DNA of 64,000 nt from Croceicoccus estronivorus (GTDB taxonomy: Bacteria > Pseudomonadota > Alphaproteobacteria > Sphingomonadales > Sphingomonadaceae): positions 62,001-126,000 of the forward strand of contig NZ_JRQQ01000002.1 in assembly GCF_001625325.1 (NCBI RefSeq). Reading direction: 5' to 3'. Below are positions 2,657-36,526 of the stretch, one piece after another. Numbering within the stretch: the first letter of the stretch is position 1; each line of letters begins with the position of its first letter. The position numbers were made by a program, and so were the translations under genes. A model generated the notes under the pieces. The model ran no database searches. It had not been told where the DNA came from and saw only the letters and a program-made list of their open reading frames with translations.

Positions 2657-3808
2657 GTGGCTCGCGCGCTTTACATACATTGGCCTTTCTGCCTGAAAAA
2701 ATGCCCATACTGCGATTTCAACTCGCATGTTCGGGCTACTGTGGAAGTCGACCGCTGGAAGGCGGCGTTGCTCGCCGATATGCGGCATGAAGCGACCCTG
2801 GCGGGCGGAGAAGCACTTGGCAGCATATTTTTCGGCGGTGGCACACCATCGCTTATGCCTCCTGATTTGGTCGATGCCCTGCTGGGCGAGGCGGAGCGGT
2901 TGTGGGGCTTCGCACCCGGAGTCGAAATTACACTGGAAGCCAATCCTTCATCCGTGGAGACGGCAAATTTCCGGATTCTGAAGAATGCTGGAATCAACCG
3001 TGTTTCGATAGGCATACAATCCCTGGATAACGAGGCATTGGGATTTCTGGGGCGCCTGCACAATGTGAAAGAGGCGCTCACGGCGCTGGAGACGGCGCAG
3101 AGCATATTCGAAAGGGTCGGCTTTGACCTCATTTATGCCCGCCCAGGGCAGTCTCTGGACCAATGGCGCGCCGAGTTGCTGCGTGCCCTTTCATTCGGGA
3201 CCGGTCACCTTTCGCTTTATCAGCTGACCATAGAGGATGGCACTCGCTTTGCGACTGACGTTCGCCAAGGGAAGTTTGTTCCGCTGGATGATGATGAAGC
3301 TGCGGATATGTTCGCGCTAACCTCTGAATTGACATCGGCTGTCGGGCTCCTTCCCTACGAGATCAGCAACCATGCATGGAAAGGCGAAGAAAGCCGTCAT
3401 AATCTGACTTATTGGCGCTATCAGGATTATTGCGGAATAGGCCCCGGAGCCCATGGCCGAAGAGGACAGATCGCAACTGTCCGTCACCGCAAACCGGAAA
3501 ACTGGCTGGAGGCAATTGCCAGTTATGGGCATGGCATCAGCGAAGAGCGTGCCTTGCCCACGTCAGAGCAGGCAAGTGAAGCTCTGCTGATGGGGCTCAG
3601 ACTGCGCGAGGGTATCGACCTGGATATGCTTTCGCAGCGTTTTGCTATCTCGGCCGGAAAGTTGGTCGACGCTGCGCGGCTTGATTTCTACACGCAACAG
3701 GGCCTCATGTGGCAAAATGGACATCGGATAGGAGTGACCGGCGCGGGCATGCCATTGCTTGACGCTCTTTTGGGAGAGCTGGTTCCCGCCGAGTTGGTTT
3801 CGGCATGA
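2657..3808 (+). CDS. hemW: HemW-like radical SAM protein (heme chaperone, formerly annotated coproporphyrinogen III oxidase-like)
   Basis: 383 residues with a GTG start. The radical SAM cluster motif CxxxCxxC is at Cys12, Cys16 and Cys19 (FCLKKCPYC), followed by FGGGTPSLM and the LEANPSS segment. These are typical of the HemW branch, which binds heme and is thought to deliver it to respiratory proteins rather than to oxidise coproporphyrinogen. It sits in the rph-rdgB-hemW-xerC operon, and its stop overlaps the xerC start (ATGA). HemW versus HemN is assigned from length and motif spacing. Confidence 0.9.
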   Translation: MARALYIHWPFCLKKCPYCDFNSHVRATVEVDRWKAALLADMRHEATLAGGEALGSIFFGGGTPSLMPPDLVDALLGEAERLWGFAPGVEITLEANPSSVETANFRILKNAGINRVSIGIQSLDNEALGFLGRLHNVKEALTALETAQSIFERVGFDLIYARPGQSLDQWRAELLRALSFGTGHLSLYQLTIEDGTRFATDVRQGKFVPLDDDEAADMFALTSELTSAVGLLPYEISNHAWKGEESRHNLTYWRYQDYCGIGPGAHGRRGQIATVRHRKPENWLEAIASYGHGISEERALPTSEQASEALLMGLRLREGIDLDMLSQRFAISAGKLVDAARLDFYTQQGLMWQNGHRIGVTGAGMPLLDALLGELVPAELVSA

Positions 3809-35583: not shown

Positions 35584-35842
35584 AATCCTGCCCAGGGTTT
35601 GTATGCCGCCCTATCCGATGCATGCGGAGGCGAGGCAAGCCTTAACAGGCGATCTTTCACCGATTTGCGTTGATCCAGCGCAATAATGGCCTCCCACTCT
35701 GCGTCCGGAAAATTACAGCCCTGCACTTATGACATTGATGACTTTCGCCACCCCTGACCAAAGGCTCCAAAGTGTCGGAATAGCTGACACCTCTACCGAA
35801 TATCCAGAGGTGTTAACTTTCATATACCGCAGAAATCCGTGC
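35584..35842. promoter_or_regulatory. Regulatory region with two overlapping inverted repeats upstream of the PEP-CTERM gene
   Basis: Two inverted repeats stand just before the sigma-54 promoter. GTGTC (35772-35776) and GACAC (35786-35790) form one; ACACCTCT (35787-35794) and AGAGGTGT (35806-35813) form a perfect 8-base second one. Their centres are about 45-65 bases upstream of the -24 element, a normal place for an enhancer-binding activator. The rest of this gap shows nothing recognisable. Confidence 0.5.
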
Positions 35843-35858
35843 TTGGCACGCCTTTTGC
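35843..35858 (+). promoter_or_regulatory. Sigma-54 (RpoN) promoter
   Basis: TTGGCACG-CCTT-TTGC matches the -24/-12 consensus, with GG at 35845-35846 and GC at 35857-35858 separated by exactly 10 bases. It lies 57 bases before the start codon of the PEP-CTERM gene and points toward it. Confidence 0.8.
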
Positions 35859-35915
35859 GAACTCCTTTGTAAACCATTCATCATGACGACTTCGAACTTA
35901 GGGGGTATTTCGAAT

Positions 35916-36227
35916 ATGAAGAAAACACTGTTGGCGCTTGGGGCACTTGGCACAGTCGCCATTGCTTCGCCCGCTATGGCCACTTTTGGTAGCTGGGGTG
36001 GTTCTTCGGGTGGCTGGAGTTCGCACAAGCACTATTGCGGCTGTGGTGACCGGATCGGCGATTCCCAGTGTGGTGGTTCGACGACTTCGGGTAGTTCAAC
36101 TACCACGTCCACCACATCGACTTCTTCCGGCAACGAAGTGCCTGAGCCGGGCATGCTGGGCATGGCCGCTGCGGGGCTTATCGGCCTTGCCGCGCTCCGT
36201 CGCCGCAAGGCTCTTGGCAAGGCATGA
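35916..36227 (+). CDS. PEP-CTERM sorting domain protein, small
   Basis: 103 residues from the ATG at 35916 (an upstream ATG at 35883 adds 11 non-signal residues). A signal peptide (MKKTLLALGALGTVAIASPAMA) is followed by a Gly/Ser/Thr-rich, Cys-containing middle (HYCGCGDRIGDSQCGG and a long Ser-Thr run). The C-terminus is a PEP-CTERM signal: VPEPGMLGM, a hydrophobic helix, then RRRK. Exosortase A cleaves such proteins, which are often glycosylated and linked to exopolysaccharide and floc formation. No exosortase is in the window. Confidence 0.85.
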   Translation: MKKTLLALGALGTVAIASPAMATFGSWGGSSGGWSSHKHYCGCGDRIGDSQCGGSTTSGSSTTTSTTSTSSGNEVPEPGMLGMAAAGLIGLAALRRRKALGKA

Positions 36228-36276
36228 AGCCGGCCATCTGACAAGTTCATCTGAGGATAGCTCCCGGATGTATTGG

Positions 36277-36307
36277 CGCCCCTTCCCCTGTGGAAGGGGC
36301 GTTTTTT
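36277..36307 (+). terminator. Rho-independent terminator after the PEP-CTERM gene
   Basis: CGCCCCTTCC (36277-36286) pairs with GGAAGGGGCG (36292-36301) around a 5-base loop, then six T. The PEP-CTERM gene is therefore a single-gene transcript. Confidence 0.85.
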
Positions 36308-36526
36308 ATTGCCATGCCCGTTTTGCCCGCTCCTTGAGCCCGCGATAAGCTGACCCAGGATGACTGTCCGGCCAAAGCCCTGACGCACGGCTATTATCTG
36401 TCGAAGCCAAAGTTTCCGTTGGTATGGAGGGAGTGGCCTCAGACTTGCCGTCGGGGCGCGATGGAGGCCATAAACCCTCCAGCGCAAGTCCAGTGGAACA
36501 GAGACCTGCCGAACGGGAGAAAGTTC

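Follow-up and report, generated by a model that had tools for sequence, protein, structure and literature searches.

The control regions closest to the one described here are those reported by Haft et al. 2006 for proteobacterial PEP-CTERM genes, in which a 17-nt motif (motif 1, occasionally repeated) is followed by a spacer of 32–92 nt and a sigma-54 motif (motif 2). According to the sections of that paper drawn on here, both motifs precede 99 of 167 such genes, and the architecture was tied by phylogenetic profile to PrsR and PrsK, the PrsR motif being regarded as putative (PMC1569441). For pepA of Aquincola tertiaricarbonis a -24/-12 start was mapped and RpoN1 is needed (PMC9850573). A preliminary description of the locus studied here stated that control of PEP-CTERM genes by PrsK/PrsR and RpoN is known from other bacteria. 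In D. vulgaris, the five predicted targets of DVUA0057, a predicted PEP-CTERM regulator, were enriched in DAP-chip, and the response regulator DVU0679 has an sRNA as a target (PMC3333781). As regards CtrA, the consulted parts of the literature give TTAACCAT as the ungapped variant of its motif and tie repression to a half-site that overlaps the -10 region (PMC6180460); regulation of exopolysaccharide synthesis in S. melonis has also been attributed to CtrA (PMC8921679, citing another paper).

Here, a 64-kb window (the whole stretch of DNA that was analysed, 64,000 nt) of the genome of Croceicoccus estronivorus (3.67 Mb, 25 contigs) was studied around a PEP-CTERM gene. With the promoters of Haft et al. 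this locus shares the 17-nt enhancer motif, a spacer within the reported range (54 nt between the palindrome and TGGCA), the sigma-54 motif, the single-gene operon and the presence of prsK and prsR; it differs in that the text of that paper, as distinct from its logos, mentions no TTAACC box, start-site box, fixed 25/35-nt phasing or RNA target. Like pepA of Aquincola, it presents a PEP-CTERM gene with a -24/-12 promoter of the RpoN-dependent type and a putative terminator behind; in Aquincola, however, prsT adjoins pepA, and the consulted sections give the enhancer one sentence, without a test (PMC9850573). The CtrA promoters of Caulobacter and Rhodobacter carry a TTAACCAT-type box (PMC6180460), which the boxes described here resemble; here, however, the promoter is of the sigma-54 type, no TTAA-N7-TTAA full site was seen and binding of CtrA is putative. 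DVU0679 offers the parallel of a response regulator with an sRNA target, but both regulator and RNA are others, and the RNA described below shares its enhancer and box with PEP-CTERM genes.

The promoter core is of an already known type; the conserved boxes with their one-turn phasing and the RNA-type targets are new. Among the open-access papers listed, a scope outside which most subscription papers lie, none was found to describe the TTAACC/AACCAT boxes or the sRNA, as judged by title, opening of the abstract or passages. In this family of sphingomonads, many promoters of the PrsR type carry two extra boxes at fixed distances from the enhancer.

The PEP-CTERM gene of C. estronivorus and its promoter region

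The window gene encodes a protein with the anatomy of an exosortase substrate, i.e. a signal peptide (as read by eye) and a PEP-transmembrane-basic anchor, and matches PF07589 with 27.3 bits (cut-off 20.7) and TIGR02595 with 18.3 bits (cut-off 16). The start codon at 35916 was preferred over that at 35883 because a Shine-Dalgarno-like AGGGGG is present and the signal peptide begins there. The other in-frame ATG, 33 nt further 5′, has no Shine-Dalgarno-like sequence. A non-coding stretch of 332 nt lies 5′ of the gene, and its upstream neighbour, a putative 2OG-Fe(II) oxygenase gene (PF13759), is oriented away from it. A terminator-like stem of 12 pairs (36275–36303) followed by T's lies on the 3′ side, and the gene forms a single-gene operon, in agreement with the preliminary description, which had proposed a single small PEP-CTERM gene ending in its own terminator.

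The near-perfect -24/-12 element with GG-N10-GC spacing, also proposed there, was found in the sequence (Table 1). Within the window the pattern TGGCAC-N5-TTGC occurs twice on the plus strand (3238 and 35844) and not on the minus strand. The copy at 3238–3252 apparently lies within coding sequence and is probably due to chance. The looser TGGCA-N6-TTGC was counted 98 times genome-wide, against 25 for a reversed control pattern, and no sigma-70-type promoter was found in 35590–36400. Transcription from sigma-54 promoters begins 12 nt after the C of the -12 GC, and the predicted start was placed by this rule.

Upstream of this element, exact GTGTC/GACAC arms (35772–35790) enclose the 17-nt core TGTC-N9-GACA, a pattern that equals its own reverse complement, occurs once on the plus strand of the window and arises in 0.2% of cases when the 260 nt upstream are shuffled. 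A search of the named genome collection with the oxygenase retrieved three relatives, the closest two of which, from Novosphingobium and Caenibius, are 83% and 79% identical, respectively. The orthologous region of Novosphingobium keeps the palindrome (with the identical sequence in the same-genus genome G002), and that of Caenibius keeps it as TGTC-N9-TACA. Across the window and these two regions, 29 of 35 element columns are invariant versus 20 of 85 other columns. The length of the palindrome and its spacer fit motif 1 as described in the text, rather than the logo, of Haft et al. 2006; the 3′ end TTTACA of the published motif reads CTGACA in the window and TTTACA before another PEP-CTERM gene of the genome (contig C1).

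The preliminary description had regarded two overlapping palindromes as candidate PrsR sites. The first retains this status, being conserved in the orthologues and fitting the published motif; the second was rejected as a conserved site. An 8-bp inverted repeat with a loop of 3–20 nt appears in 5.5% of shuffles (2.6% with a loop of up to 11 nt), which does not set the second palindrome clearly above chance, and its arms pair at 2/8 and 4/8 positions in the two orthologous regions, in both of which the repeat is lost. This second palindrome is probably incidental. A TTAAC box (35813) is the sequence that has been conserved where the right arm of this repeat ends. Of the preliminary description, the promoter and the likely regulators stood and the second palindrome did not; this box as such, the downstream AACCATT box and the fixed spacing were beyond its view.

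In the window the elements follow one another as palindrome, 23 nt, TTAACT (one letter away from TTAACC), 25 nt, TGGCAC..TTGC and, 13 nt on, AACC; the last box (AACCATT) covers about +2 to +9 relative to the predicted start.

The genes that the preliminary description proposed to look for (rpoN, prsK, prsR and an exosortase) are all present in the genome. PrsR (TIGR02915, 684.8 bits, cut-off 502.6), PrsK (TIGR02916, 474.9 bits, cut-off 300), EpsB2 (TIGR03013, 522.5 bits, cut-off 393.35) and, beside prsR, a PrsT-like TPR protein (112.7, below the cut-off of 312.2) are encoded in one cluster, and there is one exosortase (PF09721, 227.9 bits). CtrA is encoded as well (NF045991, 421.5 bits, cut-off 350), by the gene that immediately follows rpoN in the same orientation; TTAACC occurs in the interval between the two (contig C19, L050).

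Table 1. Elements of the C. estronivorus PEP-CTERM locus (positions in the window) and loci with a probable sRNA
Feature	Position or loci	Strand	Basis
Candidate PrsR enhancer site, 17-nt palindrome TGTCGGAATAGCTGACA, about -97 to -81	35773..35789	+	sequence, conservation
Second palindrome of the preliminary description, ACACCTCT/AGAGGTGT, arms 35787–35794 and 35806–35813	35787..35813	.	exact repeat
Box 2, TTAACT (family consensus TTAACCAT), 23 nt past palindrome, 25 nt before TGGCA	35813..35818	+	family comparison
-24/-12 sigma-54 promoter TGGCACGCCTTTTGC, near-consensus	35844..35858	+	sequence, pattern counts
Predicted transcription start, 12 nt past C of GC	35870..35870	+	inferred from -12 position
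Box 3, AAACCATT, AACC 13 nt past TTGC, over first transcribed bases	35871..35878	+	family comparison
Shine-Dalgarno-like AGGGGG	35900..35905	+	sequence
PEP-CTERM protein, 103 aa: signal peptide, Gly/Ser/Thr-rich body, VPEPG-transmembrane-RRRK anchor	35916..36227	+	ORF, profile matches
Intrinsic terminator: stem and T tract	36275..36307	+	sequence scan
Probable sRNA loci, strong sites	L120, L130, L133, L144–146, L150, L151, L156–162, L165		
Probable sRNA loci, reverse search	L191–194, L197–200, L202–211, L219		

Distribution and geometry of the module

When the palindrome was followed by 35–65 nt and TGGCA-N6-TTGC, 69 matches were obtained in 56 of 397 genomes of the family, versus 1 control match; several of the 69 sit in long open frames and may be due to chance. 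The TTAAC box is not universal, because just a part of these sites carry TTAAC 23–24 nt past the palindrome. A second pattern, with the palindrome, 22–25 nt and TTAACC and without sigma-54 letters, gave 50 matches in 50 of 397 genomes, versus 14 control matches. The window site is not among them, since TTAACT does not fit TTAACC patterns. A sigma-54 element scoring at least 16.5 lies within the next 80 nt in 45/50 matches (background 5.3% at a score of 16 and 2.1% at 17), and in 44/50 it lies 24, 25, 34, 35 or 36 nt past TTAACC. The first set, for which sigma-54 had been required, already contained 17 of the 50; among the 33 outside it, 28 score at least 16.5 and 27 are at the preferred distances. 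The 45 that remain after removal of the 5 matches scoring below 16.5 are referred to as strong sites. For the palindrome letters that the pattern leaves free, their consensus is TGTCGGAATTYTTGACA, G5 and T13 being present in 45/45, and TTAACC is followed by AT in 24/45.

In the reverse search, TTAACC with 34–36 nt and TGGCAY-N6-TGC, without palindrome letters, was found in 138/397 genomes and 48/96 genera, against 5 control matches (counted from the table). At least 7/8 palindrome letters lie 21–26 nt upstream in 23/29 loci, taken from among the matches listed from the 138 genomes; in the new loci (5 of the 29 overlap earlier sets) the count is 20/24, with near-duplicates among the 29 (L191/L192 and L203–205/L209). 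At random places the same agreement was seen in 17/5940 cases and, in a repeat over more loci, in 26/6360 (background 0.3–0.4%), some of these places being real sites because they were drawn from the same loci. Taken together, the forward and reverse searches show mutual prediction among the elements of the module.

When the search was extended to the whole class (385 genomes), the matches outside the family stayed at noise level, with 20 against about 36 for the control (by our own count). One convincing PEP-CTERM case outside the family, L179, has the 35-nt form. Within the family, a threshold of E up to 1e-140 retrieved PrsR from 336/397 genomes (with 335 over the cut-off) and from 44/45 module-bearing genomes; the co-occurrence (Fisher p = 0.004, relatedness ignored) gives modest support, because PrsR is so widespread.

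The distance from TTAACC to the sigma-54 element in the 45 strong sites is 35 nt (n = 26), 25 nt (n = 12), 36 nt (n = 3), 34 nt (n = 2), 24 nt (n = 1) or 56 nt (n = 1), and the two main classes are thus 10 bp, one helical turn, apart. In the 24/25-nt class, AACC(AT) stands 13 nt past TTGC in 10 of 13 sites (L122, L124, L126, L127, L138, L139, L143, L147, L149 and L080, the others being L123, L125 and L148). In the 34–36-nt class, TTAACC lies 0–1 nt past TTGC in 9/31 (L131, L132, L134–L137, L140, L152 and L155) and at none of the 16 RNA-type sites. By arithmetic on these distances, the end of the palindrome and the start-site box are about 80 nt apart in both arrangements, and the boxes therefore appear fixed while the promoter slides.

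Genes and RNA-type loci behind the module

Of the 45 strong sites, 27 were read as standing before PEP-CTERM-type genes (with PEP, EPG or PAPG anchors), 16 before stretches that lack a convincing ORF and 2 before unclassified loci (L141 and L153). A looser mechanical test leaves 18 sites without an anchored ORF, missing L148 (anchored by eye) and passing L145 (read as RNA type). PF07589 was matched at E up to 0.01 by 21 of 28 proteins scanned, which comprise the window's own, 26 from strong sites and L048 (the same gene as L143).

In the genome of C. estronivorus the module stands before three of the four PEP-CTERM genes that exceed the Pfam cut-off. In a check suggested in the preliminary description, the module with the first palindrome was found again before other PEP-CTERM genes at L049 and at the C1 gene, and not at C11:492550 (L041), where no recognisable PrsR/sigma-54 module was found. 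Upstream of the C1 gene, TGTC-N9-TACA is followed by 22 nt, TTAACC, 25 nt and TGGCAC. A reading of the sequence TGTCATTAACCACGACA before this gene as a palindrome, at a distance of 19 nt from the promoter, was given up in favour of a TTAACC box in chance flanks, with TGTC-N9-TACA, 22 nt upstream of TTAACC, as the enhancer candidate. A PF07589 match at C1:387155 fell below the cut-off and was dropped. The L049 gene (C22, 230444–230539 and downstream; module site L142, 34-nt form) lies between a His_biosynth gene (PF00977) and hisE (PF01503, phosphoribosyl-ATP pyrophosphohydrolase) and encodes a protein of 61 aa in which almost nothing separates the signal peptide from the PEP-CTERM anchor (PF07589, 22.5, cut-off 20.7). 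Short anchored ORFs were also observed behind the module in the genus g2 (L059–L062).

A short leader opens the 16 stretches without a convincing ORF, which contain a GC-rich hairpin that often has GGUCUC in its loop. The stem letters vary between genera with pairing kept, as judged by eye (GACGGGUCGG/CCGACCCGUC in L151, GAGGCGGGAUC/GAUCCCGCCUC in L156). Among the loci of the reverse search, 19/29 are RNA-type by reading, and in 16 of these 19 the opposite strand shows a glutaredoxin-like motif no more than 900 nt away. A structured small RNA is the probable product of the stretches, and in many cases it converges with a glutaredoxin-like gene. An Rfam scan of 15 of the 16 loci (all except L159) gave no family at the gathering score, the sole match being a tRNA elsewhere in L156, and RNAalifold predicted no pairs on a first sRNA alignment, apparently because the stems were misaligned. 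In C. estronivorus itself the sRNA was not detected with two strict patterns, a result that leaves room for a variant form.

A small membrane-protein-like family with a motif like RLFxIKTRFEA was observed at L051, L052, L068, L073, L082, L083, L090, L091 and L101; the two members tested had no Pfam match. Here the palindrome is 42–43 nt from the sigma-54 element and the start codon mostly about 13 nt past TTGC, so near that the message may be almost leaderless.

A model of control and its alternatives

The window gene is very probably a single-gene PEP-CTERM operon controlled by PrsK, PrsR and RpoN, a reading well supported because of the gene content, the conservation and the published motif architecture. 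The model that follows starts from observed sequences, positions, conservation and gene content; every step of binding, activation and sorting in it is carried over from what is known of these protein families, and the second regulator is named with less certainty. Once phosphorylated by PrsK, PrsR would bind the 17-bp palindrome, some 90 bp ahead of the start, and loop over to the -24/-12 element, where it would open the sigma-54 polymerase. After export via its signal peptide and handling by the exosortase, the protein would be located on the cell surface or within the matrix of exopolysaccharide. A second regulator, binding the TTAACCAT and AACCAT boxes, would gate PrsR-driven transcription; such gating is the most likely role of the boxes, with repression at the start-site box the likelier mode of action.

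The part of this model that concerns sigma-54 and PrsR has three unlikely rivals. That the -24/-12 match arose by chance and the gene uses another promoter is extremely unlikely: TGGCA-N6-TTGC does occur 98 times in the genome (25 for the control), but the place of the element is conserved together with the others in the orthologous regions, and the search of 35590–36400 for a sigma-70-type site was negative. It is very unlikely that both overlapping palindromes are PrsR sites occupied by two tandem dimers. Both repeats are exact and motif 1 is sometimes repeated (PMC1569441), but the second repeat is built as 8-11-8 and the first as 5-9-5 in arms and loop, and the loss of pairing in the orthologues (2/8 and 4/8) and the frequency of such repeats in shuffles (5.5%) speak against a second site. 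Use of the palindrome by an NtrC-family regulator other than PrsR, for which three further long matches to the PrsR model (245 to 342 bits, all below the cut-off) could be cited, is also unlikely, since many targets are PEP-CTERM genes, the motif architecture was tied to PrsR by phylogenetic profile (PMC1569441) and the predicted PEP-CTERM regulator of D. vulgaris enriched PEP-CTERM genes (PMC3333781).

For the second regulator, CtrA is the leading candidate because the ungapped form of its motif reads TTAACCAT, because repression has been tied to a half-site at the -10 region (PMC6180460) and because a role in exopolysaccharide synthesis has been stated (PMC8921679). The window boxes, TTAACTTT and AAACCATT, resemble the CtrA half-site TTAACCAT, and we name CtrA as the regulator acting at them tentatively. 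It is quite possible, if short of probable, that the TTAACC boxes serve another DNA-binding protein, e.g. one that bends DNA and aids looping. Bending proteins often act between enhancer and promoter at sigma-54 promoters, and box 2 occupies this usual place; moreover, when one form of the CtrA full site, TTAACC-N5-TTAA, was sought in the C. estronivorus genome, there were 0 forward matches against 3 for the control, and no TTAA-N7-TTAA full site was seen at the window promoter. A pure bending role is ill suited by the second copy at the start site, and IHF was set aside as owner of the box, as its consensus apparently does not fit TTAACCAT. The identity of this sequence with the ungapped CtrA motif variant (PMC6180460) likewise argues against a protein other than CtrA.

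With CtrA as the second regulator, the four-part promoter may, as a tentative proposal, couple this cell-cycle regulator to the PrsK/PrsR/RpoN surface programme in the family, a programme that would also drive a structured sRNA and micro-PEP-CTERM proteins of about 60 aa, some of them translated from nearly leaderless messages. Exosortase substrates are widespread and their control has hardly been tested. The fixed geometry, with the promoter at one of two places about 10 bp apart and the boxes at a constant distance from the enhancer, provides a model, open to direct test, in which PrsR-driven transcription receives a second input. Further members of the regulon can also be recognised by the module without protein homology, as illustrated by the micro-proteins, the family of small membrane proteins and the probable sRNA.
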